From a virus, in IMG/VR virus record IMGVR_UViG_3300044953_000562, positions 1 to 26,637 of that record: a DNA stretch of 26,637 nucleotides. One strand, 5' to 3'. The translations under genes and the position numbers were made by a program. Below are positions 114 to 25,830 of this stretch, in pieces (position 1 is the first letter of the stretch; the number at the start of each line of letters is the position of its first letter). The notes below the pieces were generated by a model, which was given only the letters and a program-made list of their open reading frames with translations, searched no databases and had not been told where the DNA came from.

Positions 114-740
114 ATGGGTTCTCTGTTCCCGAACGAATTCGTCCGCCTACGTGGAACCGATGGCCAGGTCTCCGAGTCGGTAGTCCCCGACTTCATGAAA
201 ATGAACCACGGGAGTGAGCTGACTCCCGACGAGCAGGGCCGGTTCCTGCAGGCTTACGCCCGCATCGGCATCCTCGAGAAGGCGTCCGTCGCCGCACAGG
301 TCCACAGCAGCCGAGTAAAGCGGGAGATCGAATCGAACATCGTGTTCGCCGAGGCGATGAAGGCCGCGTACAACTTCTTCAAGGCTACGCTCGAGGAAGT
401 GCTGTACGACAGAGCCGTCCATGGGTGGGAAGTCGGCGTTTACGACCGCAACGGACGCCGGGTCGGGACCGAGAAGCGGTTCGACACCTCTCTCCTTATG
501 ATGCTTGCCAAGCGGCACCTGCCGGAGTATAACGAGCGGTCGCAGATGGATGTGAACCTCAGCGGCGGCGTGCTGGTTGTGCCCGGTACGCCCAAGAGCG
601 TGGAAGCGTGGAAGGACCAGTATGATCGAGTGGAAGGTTCAAGCGGGCGAGTTGAAGCCGACCCTCCCAGGGGGGAGATCGGTAGCATGGGCACCCCAGG
701 AGGGGTCCCAGCAAGCCTTCCTCAGTTGCCCGGTGTTTGA
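114..740 (+). CDS. Small terminase subunit (TerS-like)
   Basis: 208 residues, directly upstream of and overlapping the large terminase. Residues about 36-75 (starting LTPDEQGRFLQAYARIG) look like a helix-turn-helix DNA-recognition segment (ARIGILEKASVAAQVHSSRVKRE), followed by a helical part (EAMKAAYNFFKATLEEVLYDRA) typical of phage small terminases. These oligomerise and select viral DNA for packaging. The C-terminus (from about 160) is Pro/Gly-rich and low complexity, as expected for the part overlapping terL. Start choice is uncertain: ATG 114 has no Shine-Dalgarno and lies only 3-5 nt after the predicted transcription start, implying leaderless translation. ATG 195 and 201 are alternatives, also without a clear Shine-Dalgarno. 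The role comes from position plus the HTH pattern, not from a diagnostic motif. Confidence 0.75.
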   Translation: MGSLFPNEFVRLRGTDGQVSESVVPDFMKMNHGSELTPDEQGRFLQAYARIGILEKASVAAQVHSSRVKREIESNIVFAEAMKAAYNFFKATLEEVLYDRAVHGWEVGVYDRNGRRVGTEKRFDTSLLMMLAKRHLPEYNERSQMDVNLSGGVLVVPGTPKSVEAWKDQYDRVEGSSGRVEADPPRGEIGSMGTPGGVPASLPQLPGV

Positions 741-2736
741 GTGCCTGTACTCGGGCACTCGCGGGCCGGGTAAGGGTCAGCCCCTCAACGCCACCGTCTG
801 GACGCCGAAAGGCCCCGTCCGCATCGGGAAGCTCAAGCCCGGCGATACCGTTTTCGACGGATCCGGCAAGCACTGCGAAGTTGTGCAGGTCTTCGACCGG
901 GGTTTCCAGCAGATCTACGAGTTCCAGTTCGACAACGACTCCTCCTGCTGCGTCGACGGGGAGCATCTCTGGCTGGTTTTTGATGTGATGACCGAGGAGT
1001 ACAAGGTCGTCGATACCAGGGTGCTCCTCGACAAGTTCCACCGGCCCACCTTTCGCTTCCCGATCATCCATCGCCTAGATTTTGAAGCGGTGGACCCGCT
1101 GCCCGTTTCTCCATGGGACTACGGGCTTGAGATTGGCAAGACCACGCGGATGTTTGATGAAGAGAAGGTGCTGGTACGACCGCAGAGGGAGCGGTTGAAC
1201 ATCCTCGAAGGCTTCCTCGCGGGGCTGTACACGCCGAAGACCTCGGTCGGATGGGCGAAGGGCTCCGCCCACGGGAAGCTGCTGAGAGACCTGCGGCTCT
1301 CCCTGGGCCTGCACCCGCACACCGGGGAGCCGACGAAGTTCAAGAAGATCACCCGAATCCGGAAGCTGGGGCGGGAGCCGACGCGATGCATCGCGGTGAA
1401 CTCGCCCGAGCAGACCTACATCACCAACGACTTCACGATCACCCACAACACGGACGCCCTGTTGATGTCCTGGGCCCAGTATGTCGGGCAAGGCCACGGT
1501 CCGAGTTGGAGGGGGATCTTGTTTCGACAGAGCTACCCGGAGCTCAGCGACGTCGTTTCCAAGACGAAGTTCTGGTTCCCGAAGATCTGGCCGGGGAAAG
1601 CATCGTTCAACGAGCAGAAGATGACCTGGACGATGGCGGGAGGAGAGCAGTTGCTGCTCCGCCACATGGGCAGAGCGGACGACTACAACTCCTACCACGG
1701 CCACGCCTACCCCTGGGTGGGCTGGGAGGAGCTCACTACGTGGCCGGACGACGTCTGCTACCGTCTGATGATGTCCTGCTGCCGTTCGACGAACCCTCGC
1801 ATCCCCCGCATGTACCGGGCGACGACGAACCCCTACGGGGTCGGGCACAACTGGGTGAAGAACCGGTTCCGGTGTCGGACGATGACGCCCGACAACTTCA
1901 TCGGGCCGGTGTTCGGCGATCCGCCCAGGTGTGCGATCTACGGCTTCGTGCAGGAAAACAAGATCCTGCTCCACTCGGACCCGACGTACCTGCGAAGGAT
2001 CGAGGAGTCGGCCCGCAACCCCGCAGAACGGGCCGCCTGGCTGTACGGTTCCTGGGACATCGTGTCGGGCGGTATGTTCGACGACGTGTGGAACCCCGCC
2101 TTCCACGTCGTGAGGCCGTTCGAGATCCCGCCGTCGTGGTCCATCAACCGCTCCTTCGACTGGGGCTCGAGCAAGCCCTTCTCCGTGGGCTGGTGGGCGG
2201 AGAGCGACGGCACAGACCTATATGGTCTCAGCACCTGCCGGGGCGACCTCTACCGGATCCAGGAGTGGTACGGGTGGACGGGAACGCCGAACGAGGGCTG
2301 CCGCATGGTCAGCAGCGAGATCGCCGAGGGCATCCTCGAACGAGAGAAGCTCTGGTTCCCCAAGCGGCGGGTGTACGCAGGCCCGGCGGACAACCAGATC
2401 TACACGAAGATCGACAACATCTCGATCGCGGACGAGATGGCCCGGCGGGGCTGCCACTGGCAGCGGTCGGACAAGTCGCCCGGCTCTCGACGTCAGGGCT
2501 GGCAGCAGATGCGGGAGATGCTGAAGCAGGCGATGAATCCCAGGAGGGAGGCATCGGGGCTCTTTGTCTTTCACAACTGCGACCACTTCCTCCGGACCTT
2601 GCCTGTTTTACCCCGTGCAGCATATGATCCGGAGGACATCGACACCAACTCAGAAGACCACGTGGCCGACGAATCACGATATCGCGTCTTGACACGACCC
2701 CACAAGGTCCGGGTCAATCCCATCAAAGGACGGTAA
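622..2736 (+). CDS. terL: Large terminase subunit (TerL) precursor with intein
   Basis: ATPase-nuclease motor that packages DNA through the portal. ATG 622 is preferred over the longer frame from 577 because GAAGGA (611-616) lies 5 nt upstream. The precursor is 704 residues. Removing the intein (775-1449, 225 residues) leaves 479, a normal TerL length. Exteins rejoin as GTRGPGK/TDALLMSW, a perfect P-loop. Downstream are the Walker B and catalytic segment VGWEEL (Glu-Glu codons 1726-1731) and an ATTNPYG coupling motif (about 1819-1839). RNase H-like nuclease acidic residues are seen in RSFDWG (Asp 2158-2160), AGPAD (Asp 2389-2391) and HVADESRY (Asp 2668-2670). It overlaps terS by 119 nt and ends one nucleotide before the portal start. 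Without splicing the P-loop Lys and Thr are separated, so the ATPase should be inactive. Confidence 0.95.
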   Translation: MIEWKVQAGELKPTLPGGRSVAWAPQEGSQQAFLSCPVFECLYSGTRGPGKGQPLNATVWTPKGPVRIGKLKPGDTVFDGSGKHCEVVQVFDRGFQQIYEFQFDNDSSCCVDGEHLWLVFDVMTEEYKVVDTRVLLDKFHRPTFRFPIIHRLDFEAVDPLPVSPWDYGLEIGKTTRMFDEEKVLVRPQRERLNILEGFLAGLYTPKTSVGWAKGSAHGKLLRDLRLSLGLHPHTGEPTKFKKITRIRKLGREPTRCIAVNSPEQTYITNDFTITHNTDALLMSWAQYVGQGHGPSWRGILFRQSYPELSDVVSKTKFWFPKIWPGKASFNEQKMTWTMAGGEQLLLRHMGRADDYNSYHGHAYPWVGWEELTTWPDDVCYRLMMSCCRSTNPRIPRMYRATTNPYGVGHNWVKNRFRCRTMTPDNFIGPVFGDPPRCAIYGFVQENKILLHSDPTYLRRIEESARNPAERAAWLYGSWDIVSGGMFDDVWNPAFHVVRPFEIPPSWSINRSFDWGSSKPFSVGWWAESDGTDLYGLSTCRGDLYRIQEWYGWTGTPNEGCRMVSSEIAEGILEREKLWFPKRRVYAGPADNQIYTKIDNISIADEMARRGCHWQRSDKSPGSRRQGWQQMREMLKQAMNPRREASGLFVFHNCDHFLRTLPVLPRAAYDPEDIDTNSEDHVADESRYRVLTRPHKVRVNPIKGR
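775..1449 (+). other. Class 3 intein inserted in the TerL P-loop
   Basis: A 225-residue in-frame insertion between P-loop Lys and Thr. Block A (residues 1-25, GQPLNATVWTPKGPVRIGKL) keeps canonical spacing (A6, V8, G13), but residue 1 is Gly rather than Cys or Ser. Block B has GEHLW with H64 and W66 (codons 964-966 and 970-972). Block F has TRCIAV with C205 (1387-1389) where ordinary inteins have Asp. Block G is ITHN with T223, H224 and N225 (1441-1449), followed by +1 Thr. W(B12), C(F4) and T(G5) together are the class 3 signature, in which the block F Cys starts splicing. Residues 107-180 look like a decayed LAGLIDADG endonuclease. If Gln 778 were residue 1, splicing would leave GPGKGT, which breaks the Walker A, so Gly 775 is preferred. 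Confidence 0.92.
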
Positions 2737-9348: not shown

Positions 9349-9659
9349 CATACGAATTGAAGATGGGGGCCATGGAGGCCACCATTGTCAAGACCTGTGC
9401 TCGGAGCAAGCGAGAGCTTCCCGAGAAGGTTAGGAATGCCCCTACCCTCGAGCAGGGGCTTGAGCTATACTACATTGCCTTCCAGCGACTCTCGAGCACG
9501 AGAGCCGTTGGTATGGGTCTCGGCCCGATACCCTGGACTGCGATTCAGACCTACTGCGAGACGTACGAGCTTGATGAGGTGACCCAAGAACTGATGCATG
9601 TGTACATCCCGGCCATGGACAATGTATTCCTGAAGATCTCCCAGGAGAAGAAATCATGA
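8956..9659 (+). CDS. Tail assembly chaperone frameshift product (gpGT-like)
   Basis: Predicted product of -1 ribosomal frameshifting: codons 8956-9333, then 9333-9659, 234 residues in all. The extension has a strong T-domain signature: LEQGLELYYIAFQRLSSTRA, VGMGLGPIPWTAI and a final VYIPAMDNVFLKI helix. That family pattern has no good independent start: TTG 9357 lacks a Shine-Dalgarno and begins after conserved-looking upstream residues. In lambda the T domain recruits tail-tube subunits to the tape measure, and the same role is inferred here. The product overlaps the next gene by 4 nt (ATGA). Confidence 0.85.
9327..9333 (+). promoter_or_regulatory. -1 frameshift slippery site G GGA AAC
   Basis: Heptamer GGGAAAC is phased exactly as X XXY YYZ in the upstream frame (GGA 9328-9330, AAC 9331-9333). 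After a -1 slip the tRNAs re-pair on GGG and AAA. The shifted frame is open from here to 9659. Lambda uses GGGAAAG at the same place in its G-T genes. No strong downstream stem was identified by eye. Confidence 0.88.
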
Positions 9660-10621
9660 AGAACGACATTGGACGTCTGGCCGCCGAGTACCTTGCCAAG
9701 TTCCCCACAGAATCGAATCGATCGATTGCTGCGGCACTGGCTCTGCACCACCCGGCGGTGGGCACGCTCGAGCAGTTCCGCAGTGCCGTGCGGCATCGTC
9801 GGGGTGCCGCTGGGAATGAGAAACGGAAGTCCGCGACCTGCGTGAGAGAGGAGATCCCGAAGACACGGGCACTCCCTCCCGACAACCTTCTCATCTCCGG
9901 CAATCGCCGTGTCCTCATCCTCTCCGACGTCCACGTTCCCGTCCACGACGAGATGGCGATGAAGACGGCGGTGAAGTACGGGAAGGATCACAAAGCAGAT
10001 ACCATCTTCCTCAACGGGGACTTCGTCGACTTCGCGAGGGTCTCGGATCACCGGCCCACGCCCGACCTCCCGGAGATGAGGGAAGAGCGGGCCGTGGCCA
10101 TCGAGTTCCTCACCTGGCTTCGCCGCCAGTTTCCGAGAGCCGACTTCTACTACCGTCTGGGGAACCACGAGGAACGGCTCGAAGCCTACGCCTACGACCG
10201 AGCCCCTGCGATCTGGGAAGAGGCTCTCCATTCGTTTGAAGCCTACTTGCGGTTGGAATCCCTGGGCGTTGCGTGCATCAAGTTCAGGCGTCGAGTGGAC
10301 CTTGGTAGCCTCAGAACCTACCACGGCCACGAGCTCCCCAAGGGCATCTCTTCCCCGGTGTCCCCGGCCAAGAGACTCTACGACCGAATGAAGACGACCG
10401 CCTTGTGCGGTCATTTTCATAGGACGAGCCGCTACGTCGCCCCCGATAGTGAACACAAGCTGGTCACCTGTCACACCGTGGGCTGCCTGTGTGGCCTCTC
10501 GCCCCTCTACGCGAGGGTGAACGACTGGAACTTCGGCTTTGCCTTCATGGAACTCGACAAGAGCGGCGACTTCATGCTGGACAATCTTGCGATTTCACGA
10601 TCGGGGAAAGTCTTCCGATGA
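9656..10621 (+). CDS. Calcineurin-like metallophosphoesterase
   Basis: 321 residues with a complete two-metal phosphoesterase active site: D91-x-H93 (SDVHVP), GD at 121-122 (LNGDFVDF), GNHEE 169-173, HGH 223-225 and GHFH 252-255. Such enzymes hydrolyse phosphodiesters or phosphomonoesters with Mn or Fe; the substrate cannot be read from sequence. Residues 1-50 look like a small helical, possibly DNA-binding, segment (SIAAALALHHP, EQFRSAVRHRRG) seen at the front of some phage phosphoesterases. AGGAG (9643-9647) precedes ATG 9656, and the start overlaps the chaperone stop by 4 nt. Location between tail chaperone and tape measure is unusual. It may be a moron (DNA or cyclic-nucleotide hydrolysis) or help tail assembly. 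Confidence 0.88.
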   Translation: MKNDIGRLAAEYLAKFPTESNRSIAAALALHHPAVGTLEQFRSAVRHRRGAAGNEKRKSATCVREEIPKTRALPPDNLLISGNRRVLILSDVHVPVHDEMAMKTAVKYGKDHKADTIFLNGDFVDFARVSDHRPTPDLPEMREERAVAIEFLTWLRRQFPRADFYYRLGNHEERLEAYAYDRAPAIWEEALHSFEAYLRLESLGVACIKFRRRVDLGSLRTYHGHELPKGISSPVSPAKRLYDRMKTTALCGHFHRTSRYVAPDSEHKLVTCHTVGCLCGLSPLYARVNDWNFGFAFMELDKSGDFMLDNLAISRSGKVFR

Positions 10622-15519: not shown

Positions 15520-15604
15520 CTTCGCGTGTGTCATCGCGTCTTCCGTCATCATCGCTGAACTGATGTTCCGCTTTGTGCTGTTCGTGTCCAACCGGTTTTC
15601 CTGA
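15500..15604 (+). CDS. 34-residue single-pass membrane peptide
   Basis: ATG 15500 has a very strong Shine-Dalgarno, GAGGAGG (15487-15493), at 6-nt spacing and encoded inside the preceding gene. The product is almost entirely one hydrophobic helix (about residues 8-30: FACVIASSVIIAELMFRFVLFVS) with a short basic end. A longer reading of this frame from 15377 adds only a basic, Ser-rich shadow segment. Its stop shares a base with the ATG at 15604. Candidate pinholin or lysis regulator; not a recognised family. Confidence 0.6.
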   Translation: MIMNPLSFACVIASSVIIAELMFRFVLFVSNRFS

Positions 15605-15615
15605 TGGAGTTTGAC

Positions 15616-17706
15616 ATGCTTCGCTACCTTGCTGCCCTGCTGCTCGCTATCACTCTGCCCGCCAACGCCCAGTGGACCCACCACGACGGCACCATCGTCC
15701 CCGATTACATCGGGAACGGCTTGCCGGGTGTTGTCATCGACCGCGACACCCAGTGGGCGGCCCCGACCAGAAACGAATTCGTCCATGTGACCAATGGGGC
15801 GACGCTGACCATCTCCTCTTTCTGCGAGGCGGACACGATCTACGTTACCGACGGGCTGCTCGTCCTCGAGCCGGGAGCCCGCGTGGTGATCAAGCACGTG
15901 GCAAGGAACTTCGACCTGAAGGATGTCGGCGGCGGCATCATCACGGTGAACAAGGGTGGACTCCGCATTCTGGGCACGCAGAGGCCCAGGGTGTTGCCCG
16001 TGGCCACCGATGTGGCCAAGGGAGCCACCGCCATCAACCTGCCGCCGGACCACGGCCTGCGGGCGGGGGACACCATTGTCCTCCCGATGACCGAGTTTTG
16101 GCGCAATGGCACCCTCGTTACGCTGGCCAATCATCAGGACGAAGTCATCGTCCTCACTGGCGTCTCCGCCACGACCGCGACCTGGAGCACGCCCACTCGC
16201 TTCAACCACATTCGCCCTCGCATGCCCGACGGCTCGCCCGCCTGCGACCTGCCGGTGGGCCTGCTCACCGCCGATGTGCGTATCGAGTCGGCGACGCCTG
16301 CCGATATCCCGTCTCGCGGTCATGTCATCCTCATGGGCGAGGGGGCTGTCGAGCTCTACAACGGTGCCTTCATCGGGCTAGGCCGATCACTGGTCGACGG
16401 CAATCAGCGGACGCCGCCTTTCACCGGCATCGCACCCCCTGGGCGTTATCCTATCCATGCTCATCACAGGATGCACGGCGAACCGCCGATTATCCAGGGA
16501 TGTGCTGTCTGGGGCGACGACCGCACGGCCCACGGCATCGTCTACCACCACTCTTTCTACTCGCAGATTCGCGGGAACTTCGTCTACGGCACGCTCGGGG
16601 CCGCCATCCTCGATGAGGATGGCAATTCTGTCGGATCCGTCATTATCGGCAATCTGGTCACGAGAGTTAGCGGACTCGGCGGTGGCTACTTCCAGGGCGT
16701 CCCCGCCACGATTCGCCACGTGGCTCAGTACCGTGCGGGTGGACACGCCTACGTCACGGCGGGCTATCGCCAGGCCGTTCGAGAGAACTGGGCCTGCGTC
16801 GGGGCTGCGAAGCCCGATCAGGCTGGCTTCATGATCTTCCCGCTGTTGGCTGAACCCGGCTTGATGCCGAACAGCCCGAACGCTCCTCATGACCAGTGGA
16901 CGATGCAGAACCCGCAGTACGGCATCGACATTGTTGTGAAAGACAACATCGTGATTGCCGGTGCGATCGGATACATCGCGTGGGGGATCAACGGGACGAG
17001 GACTTCTACGCTACCGGGGACCAATCGGACGCTGATCGGTCCCAACTACGCTTACGACGTAGCTTCTCGCGGCATGCACTTCTACGCCTGCTCGCGTCTG
17101 GACTGGAAGCAGGACACGATCGTTACTGGCCACAAGCAGCCGATCACCCAGGTGTTGTATCCTGCGACCGGCGTTACTCTGACGAACGATGAACGAATCG
17201 TGAACTGCAGCTACGAAGGTCGCATCCACGGCGTCGCCTTGGGCGTGTCTCTTTCTCCGTTCTTGGAGACATTCACTCTCAAGGGCTCGATCGTCGCGAA
17301 AGCGGGTATGCGGCGAGGCTGGCCCGCCACCCTGCAGGGTGCGGCCAATAACCCCAGAACCTTCCCTCCCCGCACTATCGAGATCCAAGCCGATCTCAGT
17401 GGCTGCCCAGAGATGGTTCAACAGGAGAATCATCCAGCCGCAGAACGAATTCAGGACGCCGCGACGAATGACGATTTGCTTGTCTGGCTCTTCGGAGTAA
17501 AATATCGGGCGTTCGCCCCGGACCAGTTCCCGGATGTCCTCGCCCCGATCACCGGTGTCTACCCGAACAACATCGGACGCCGGGGCAACGACCCGGTGCA
17601 CACCGGAAAGACCAACGCACAGGTTCCGCTGCCCTCGCGTGGAGCCGTGTCTCCGCGAGAGGGTAGGATGTGGTCTGGGATGATCCTCGTGGAAGCTCCT
17701 CAATGA
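15616..17706 (+). CDS. Secreted G8/CEMIP-like beta-helix protein
   Basis: 696 residues from ATG 15616, which has GGAG (15606-15609) at 6 nt. ATG 15604 would add MEFD and spoil the signal peptide. Residues 1-18 (MLRYLAALLLAITLPANA) form a Sec signal, cleaved before Gln19. Residues about 20-150 follow a G8-like pattern of short strands (VTNGATLTI, YVTDGLLVLEPGARV, ITVNKGGLRILG). A parallel beta-helix follows, with the motif set of eukaryotic CEMIP/TMEM2 proteins: YPIHAHH (278-284), RTAHGIVYHHSF (303-314), LGAAILDEDGN (327-337) and a following Asn-rich turn. Family members include hyaluronan-degrading enzymes. I infer a polysaccharide-binding or -degrading protein exported by the host, or a tail depolymerase. 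Confidence 0.75.
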   Translation: MLRYLAALLLAITLPANAQWTHHDGTIVPDYIGNGLPGVVIDRDTQWAAPTRNEFVHVTNGATLTISSFCEADTIYVTDGLLVLEPGARVVIKHVARNFDLKDVGGGIITVNKGGLRILGTQRPRVLPVATDVAKGATAINLPPDHGLRAGDTIVLPMTEFWRNGTLVTLANHQDEVIVLTGVSATTATWSTPTRFNHIRPRMPDGSPACDLPVGLLTADVRIESATPADIPSRGHVILMGEGAVELYNGAFIGLGRSLVDGNQRTPPFTGIAPPGRYPIHAHHRMHGEPPIIQGCAVWGDDRTAHGIVYHHSFYSQIRGNFVYGTLGAAILDEDGNSVGSVIIGNLVTRVSGLGGGYFQGVPATIRHVAQYRAGGHAYVTAGYRQAVRENWACVGAAKPDQAGFMIFPLLAEPGLMPNSPNAPHDQWTMQNPQYGIDIVVKDNIVIAGAIGYIAWGINGTRTSTLPGTNRTLIGPNYAYDVASRGMHFYACSRLDWKQDTIVTGHKQPITQVLYPATGVTLTNDERIVNCSYEGRIHGVALGVSLSPFLETFTLKGSIVAKAGMRRGWPATLQGAANNPRTFPPRTIEIQADLSGCPEMVQQENHPAAERIQDAATNDDLLVWLFGVKYRAFAPDQFPDVLAPITGVYPNNIGRRGNDPVHTGKTNAQVPLPSRGAVSPREGRMWSGMILVEAPQ

Positions 17707-25461: not shown

Positions 25462-25830
25462 ATGAAACCCATTCCCAAGAGCGTCTACCTTTCTGGGCCC
25501 ATGCGGCACTACCCCTACTACAACGCCAAGGCGTTTGACAGCCTTGCAGGCCCCCTCCGGGCGGACGGGTGGGCCGTGGTCTCCCCCGTAGACCTGGACC
25601 GTGCAGACGGCTTCGAGCCGCTGGCGATGCCCCCCGATTCGGACTGGTCGCAGGTGCCCTACATGGGCCTCACGCTGCGGGAGCTCGTCGCCCGTGATGT
25701 TGAGGCTCTCCTTACCTGCGAGTACATCCTGATGCTCTACGGCTGGGAGAACTCCGTTGGAGCGAGGGCTGAGCTCGCCGTCGCGGAATTCGCTGGCCTG
25801 CTTGTCCGATACCAGCGAGACATAAAATAG
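25462..25830 (+). CDS. DUF4406/nucleoside deoxyribosyltransferase-like protein
   Basis: 122 residues from ATG 25462; TGAGG (25446-25450), part of the last repeat unit, is a distant Shine-Dalgarno. The sequence follows the DUF4406 group of the nucleoside 2-deoxyribosyltransferase superfamily: VYLSGPMRHYPYYNAKAF near the N-terminus, LRADGWAVVSPVDLDR, LRELVARDVEALLTCEYILMLYGWE, then NSVGARAELAVAEFAGL (SxGAxxE, the expected catalytic Glu region). Members act on nucleotides or nucleosides, but the phage substrate is unknown. It is the first gene after the repeat array and precedes a helicase, consistent with DNA metabolism. Confidence 0.75.
   Translation: MKPIPKSVYLSGPMRHYPYYNAKAFDSLAGPLRADGWAVVSPVDLDRADGFEPLAMPPDSDWSQVPYMGLTLRELVARDVEALLTCEYILMLYGWENSVGARAELAVAEFAGLLVRYQRDIK

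Follow-up and report, generated by a model that had tools for sequence, protein, structure and literature searches.

The question raised by this locus is what interrupts the Walker A motif of a phage large terminase (TerL), and whether the interruption can be removed from the protein. The window, by which we mean the whole stretch of DNA analysed, is an entire virus record of 26,637 bases from an uncultivated source, with genes in the order terminase small subunit (TerS), TerL with its insert, portal protein, P22-type coat protein, tape measure protein and further tail genes. From this gene content it is clear that the window is the structural region of a tailed phage. Very probably the insert is a class 3 splicing element at the Walker A Lys|Thr bond of TerL, one that splices, derives from homing and has a decayed endonuclease. 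The features on which this reading is built are as follows.

114..740, + strand: terminase small subunit gene, directly 5' of TerL and overlapping its start (phrog_4044, E=5.9e-23)
577-2736: TerL reading frame, likely start ATG 622
622..774, + strand: N-extein of TerL from the likely start ATG 622, ending in Walker A ...GTRGPGK (motif alignment with homologues)
775..1449, + strand: predicted class 3 intein, 225 aa, Gly1 to Asn225 (HMM, invariant residues, AlphaFold model, structure matches)
964..972, + strand: block B catalytic His64 (B:10) and Trp66 (B:12), invariant in 20 class 3 inteins and confirmed by residue check
1099..1140, + strand: LAGLIDADG motif 1 relic, LPVSPWDYGLEIGK, catalytic Asp lost (HMM alignment)
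1189..1314, + strand: putative LAGLIDADG motif 2 relic, RLNILEGFLAGLYTPKTS...LRLSLGL, compared with RLA.LQGLMDTDGS...RSLGG
1387..1389, + strand: Cys205, block F position 4, invariant, expected first nucleophile
1441..1452, + strand: Thr223 (G:5), His224, Asn225 and +1 Thr, the last being also the Walker A Thr (residue check, invariant columns)
1450..2736, + strand: C-extein, the remaining TerL with the rest of the ATPase and the nuclease regions (phrog_979)

The interrupted protein is recognizable as a phage large terminase. Its Walker A and Walker B regions are present, the TerS and portal genes adjoin, and the C-extein matches the phrog_979 terminase large subunit family (E=8.3e-19); identity to other TerLs is 45-64% overall, and that of the C-extein is 61% to its relative L001 and 45-56% to isolated phages. 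Scans for Rfam families and tRNAs gave no match, nor did NCBIfam, and Pfam returned only Hint_2 and Terminase_6N, both sub-threshold. Between the Walker A Lys and Thr, positions 775-1449 hold 225 in-frame codons with no stop, beginning GQPLNATVWTPKGPVRIG, ending RCIAVNSPEQTYITNDFTITHN and flanked by GTRGPGK and TDALLMSW, such that TerL minus the insert reads GTRGPGK-TDALLMSW. An in-frame insert of this length at this bond had been claimed in a preliminary description of the DNA, and coordinates, frame and homologues all bear it out; the 479-residue product proposed there agrees with simple arithmetic, as a precursor starting at ATG 622 has 704 aa, 225 of which belong to the insert.

The position of the insert is defined by terminases that lack it. 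Homologous loci numbered 97, 17 from a scan with the C-extein and 80 from a TerL-profile scan blind to intein content, a few contigs being represented twice. GxRGxGK runs without interruption into T or S and then D in 94 of the 97, most frequently as GTRGPGKTDA, and the other three (L186, L198 and L199, with L198 the same contig as L035) are interrupted at the K|T bond where the insert of the window lies. Intein-free homologues with the loop GPGKG-T had been named beforehand as the observation that would speak against this site; none of the 97 loci reads that way, and the alternative boundary KG|Q, which implies such a loop, was rejected because it is seen in none of the homologues. Aligned with its relatives, the intein boundary is unambiguous. 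A different kind of intein, class 1-like (Cys1, ...SGN|S), is present in two of the terminases, L015 and L016 (TerL ORFs at 1273 and 1382). It lies at TTNPYG|C, on the downstream side of Walker B, and the Walker A motif of both proteins is uninterrupted.

Class 3 inteins are defined by a Trp-Cys-Thr set together with the lack of a nucleophile at residue 1 (PMC3196547, PMC5222942, PMC7891396). With the boundary set by the uninterrupted homologues, residue 1 of the window intein is Gly and not Cys, Ser or Thr, which supports the earlier statement that it is unable to serve as first nucleophile. Trp B:12, Cys F:4 and Thr G:5 are present as W66, C205 and T223, all aligning to invariant columns, and His B:10 (H64), the penultimate His (H224), the C-terminal Asn (N225) and Thr+1 complete the catalytic complement. 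A direct residue check returned G, W, C, T, H and N at positions 1, 66, 205, 223, 224 and 225 and Thr at +1, exactly the Trp-Cys-Thr residues, terminal His-Asn and +1 Thr listed in the preliminary description; aligned with 20 class 3 inteins the full set falls into line, and G31, H64, W66, C205, T223, H224 and N225 (window numbering) are invariant throughout. A class 3 HMM built from 60 other class 3 inteins, with the window intein left out, matched the window ORF with E=1.7e-38 and no other among the 466 window ORFs, in two pieces, one ending where the endonuclease is inserted and the other made up of the final 39 residues. By its E value this match is far beyond chance, and it points to common descent with class 3 inteins. 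A tblastn search detected relatives in 319 phage records, full-length in phiKT1019 (29% identity, E=4e-18); exact peptide patterns for close intein relatives found none in viral_contigs, and a scan of genome_contigs with the same profile yielded 28 pattern matches and no confirmed intein.

The structure model points in the same direction. The AlphaFold model of the intein (mean pLDDT 88.7, pTM 0.83, with the splicing domain mostly >90) has what is predicted to be a HINT fold, and its best structural match, with Z 19.9 and 123 residues superposed at 1.6 A, is 6bs8, a class 3 intein from DnaB of Mycobacterium smegmatis. Tied with 6bs8 are Prp8 inteins and the class 3 MchDnaB1 intein (Z 19.6-19.7), and the class 3 structure 6rix scores Z 19.7 against the model. 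The alignment with PI-SceI, which is an intein that has an endonuclease domain, takes in 217 of the 225 residues at about 3.4 A. HMM, catalytic set and fold match uphold the earlier assignment to class 3, and the view that Cys F:4 initiates splicing is supported as an expectation.

The preliminary description had further proposed that Gly1 at a Walker A site marks a recurrent terminase intein allele, and this proposal stands only in part. It does recur: same-site Gly1 class 3 inteins occur in six further terminase contigs (L029, L034, L035, L040, L042 and L043). It does not define the allele, as related terminases have Ser1 (L186) or Arg1 (L199) at the same K|T bond, their class 3 sets being otherwise complete, and Gly1 is common elsewhere. 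Residue 1 among 61 dereplicated class 3 inteins, a sample biased by its search patterns, one of which demanded Gly1, was A in 29, G in 20, P in 4, E, D and S in 2 each, and R and L in 1 each; a further scan added a block B pattern, by which L042 (GLPI) was found. The Gly1 inteins of the sample lie mostly in Cas4-like exonucleases, and Gly1 is the rule in inteins of Cas4/RecB-like exonucleases, as the isolated phages Traft412 and Frankenweenie exemplify. Other terminases have K|T inteins with Ala1 (L118 from Manda, L120, and L122 from Ec_Makalu_002), and at least four changes are needed to place Gly1 on the intein tree. Gly1 is neither special nor diagnostic within class 3. One published result speaks against regarding Gly1 as harmless: the AceL NrdHF intein, also of class 3, no longer spliced once it carried an A1G substitution (PMC7891396). 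A suitable junction must accordingly accompany Gly1 in natural inteins; the literature examined contained no splicing test of a natural Gly1 class 3 intein. Set against each other, the frequency of Gly1 in nature and the loss of splicing in AceL NrdHF make the role of residue 1 directly testable. Some same-site inteins are worth recording in this context. Those of L186 (1514-2500) and L199 (424-1401) are class 3 inteins at the terminase K|T bond, and L186, which pairs Ser1 with Cys F:4, could be used to test which nucleophile initiates splicing. L046, a 477-aa ORF, has a same-site Gly1 intein (GFPLDEIIYT) with a broken C-terminal junction (VTRGLRCHAQYG...), either through an assembly frameshift or as a dead copy.

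A feature absent from the preliminary description is the eroded endonuclease. In same-site relatives whose motifs are intact, the sequences are LPxDPYxLGLxLGDGS and LQGLMDTDGS, and motif 1 in intact relatives takes the form LP(I/V)DPY.LGL.LGDGS; the corresponding stretch of the window intein reads LPVSPWDYGLEIGKTT, without the catalytic Asp, and its middle region is >100 residues shorter than in the same-site relatives. The putative motif 2 relic is weak by sequence, 55 of 5000 shuffles scoring as high (about 0.011), and it falls within the region that aligns to PI-SceI endonuclease structures, an alignment that takes in the helical middle of the model. Compared with its relatives, the LAGLIDADG endonuclease is a truncated relic lacking its catalytic Asp, and with both losses the intein should not home; the preferred reading is a one-time homing intein for which homing is no longer expected. 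LAGLIDADG motifs are kept in 82.5% of class 3 inteins and are thus typical, not required (PMC7891396), and loss of the endonuclease motifs is the usual account of how mini-inteins arose (PMC5222942). Comparable shrinkage is seen in the jumbo-phage helicase inteins L019, L020, L022 and L025 and in the exonuclease inteins L107 and L115.

The trees give some indication of how such inteins have moved. The six Gly1 TerL inteins form one clade (100/99), the TerLs that bear inteins are scattered among intein-free TerLs with at least four state changes, and the inteins of L029 and L035 are sisters while their TerLs are not. In a quick tree the window TerL is sister to the intein-free L001 with support 99. 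One intein clade in scattered terminases fits homing between lineages, or horizontal spread. The window intein itself is divergent and has the longest branch (1.66) in an intein tree that held no class 1 set. In one tree it joins the Gly1 TerL clade and L048 (83/86), grouping with the Gly1 TerL clade (p-AU 0.535) and grouping with the jumbo-phage inteins (p-AU 0.444) were both retained, and in a quick tree minus residue 1 its grouping with the Gly1 TerL inteins dissolves. A position beside the Gly1 TerL clade is suggestive for the window intein, not secure, and a common origin with the six Gly1 TerL inteins is likely. The closest intein by identity, 38% over the splicing parts, is that of L048 (2501-3517) and L111; it has Gly1 and an intact endonuclease, and sits in the P-loop of an SF2-helicase-like protein.

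In the class 3 family, Cys F:4 attacks the upstream junction, the N-extein is transferred to the +1 residue and Asn cyclisation follows (PMC5222942). By this precedent Cys205 would attack the Lys(-1)-Gly1 bond, aided by His64 and Thr223, the N-extein would then pass to Thr+1, and Asn225 would cyclise as the exteins join to give a 479-residue TerL with its P-loop, GTRGPGKT, intact. The lack of a nucleophile at residue 1 is shared with class 2, and Thr+1 might be imagined to attack the upstream junction directly, leaving Cys205 dispensable; the full Trp-Cys-Thr set, the class 3 inteins among the best matches and the block to splicing caused by Cys F:4 mutation in three tested class 3 mini-inteins (PMC5222942) make such a route exceedingly improbable. 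Until the class 3 reaction has run, the ATP site would be split and the motor should be inactive. A split P-loop would be unable to bind ATP, so TerL would be active only after splicing; that packaging ATPase activity is off before then is a fair inference by analogy, precursors of RadA with a P-loop intein being known that lack ATPase activity (work mentioned in PMC6195587). Kelley and co-workers concluded that terminase inteins must splice before motor assembly, and those they tested spliced readily (PMC5050341). The window intein, formerly spread by homing and having lost its endonuclease in this copy, would persist because TerL needs it spliced out.

It might instead be decaying altogether, in the manner of Arsp-FB24 Arth_1007, a dead class 3 intein (PMC3196547), with splicing lost and the phage or its TerL defective, and the eroded endonuclease and the long branch would suit such a fate. 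Against this, the window intein keeps every splicing residue where Arsp-FB24 is without Cys F:4 and His B:10, its splicing domain is modelled with high confidence, TerL is essential and keeps its reading frame, and the neighbouring terminase and structural genes have open reading frames. We consider loss of splicing unlikely. That splicing might time packaging is an old general idea. It was put forward for this intein in the preliminary description, and in its stronger form holds that a redox or metal signal restrains splicing until late infection. There is a precedent in DnaBi1, a P-loop class 3 mini-intein of M. smegmatis whose block F Cys lets it sense redox state (PMC6195587), and the window intein has C34, C58 and C59 besides C205. 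The toggle partner of DnaBi1, Cys48, however, aligns with Ile47 of the window intein, five tested terminase inteins spliced quickly (PMC5050341), and loss of the endonuclease with retention of splicing is explicable without any benefit; regulated splicing is very unlikely on this evidence. It is just as hard to credit that the Gly1 intein, its homing lost, is kept as a conditional switch delaying packaging till late infection, with Gly1 tolerated through compensating changes specific to GPGK|G.

Several known systems bear comparison with the window intein. DnaBi1 (Msm DnaB-1, PDB 6bs8), the best structural match, is likewise a class 3 intein at an ATPase Walker A Lys|Ser/Thr site without an active endonuclease; it differs in its host, DnaB, in its 139 aa with a short linker in place of the ~70-residue endonuclease relic, and in its redox partner Cys48. 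A P-loop class 3 mini-intein has already been published with a structure (PMC6195587). The insertion bond is also published: the TerL1-a allele of mycobacteriophages and a Kocuria prophage occupies the same Walker A Lys|Thr position of a large terminase, although of another family, terminase_1 (PMC5050341). Class 3 inteins in terminases have been described as TerL1-c, -d and -e, and the K|T intein of the cluster E phage Manda differs in its Ala1 and intact endonuclease. The six IMG/VR inteins share GPGK|G...THN|TD junctions, Gly1, Trp-Cys-Thr and a related terminase with the window intein, but have 330-342 aa, intact LAGLIDADG and at most ~33% identity to it. Those of the Cas4/RecB-like exonucleases (Traft412 L125, Frankenweenie L126) are class 3 with Gly1, a K|G junction and THN|T, but lie in another host protein and a separate clade. 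The jumbo-phage helicase inteins (phiKT1019 L019, KpZh_1 L020) are class 3 or class 3-like, occupy a P-loop K|T site and are equally shrunken in the endonuclease region (197-227 aa), but they have Ala1 and a helicase host and form a separate clade, weakly set apart from the window intein. Novelty lies in the allele family of this terminase lineage and in its eroded member. A well-delimited class 3 intein is added in a terminase lineage beyond mycobacteriophages, and one site in one gene family offers the intein life cycle for comparison at several stages: uninterrupted, with an intact endonuclease and with a decayed one.

Several further observations were made in passing. In the Salmonella phage vB_SalM_SA002 (L026, 1058-3648), two annotated helicase genes are apparently one intein-split helicase. 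Within the window, a calcineurin-like metallophosphoesterase gene lies between tail genes at 9656-10621, a large protein encoded among the tail genes at 15604-17706 has a weak match to a CEMIP beta-helix (E=7e-6, below the Pfam cut-off), and a DUF4406 protein at 25462-25830 is followed by an SNF2-type helicase cut off by the end of the contig.
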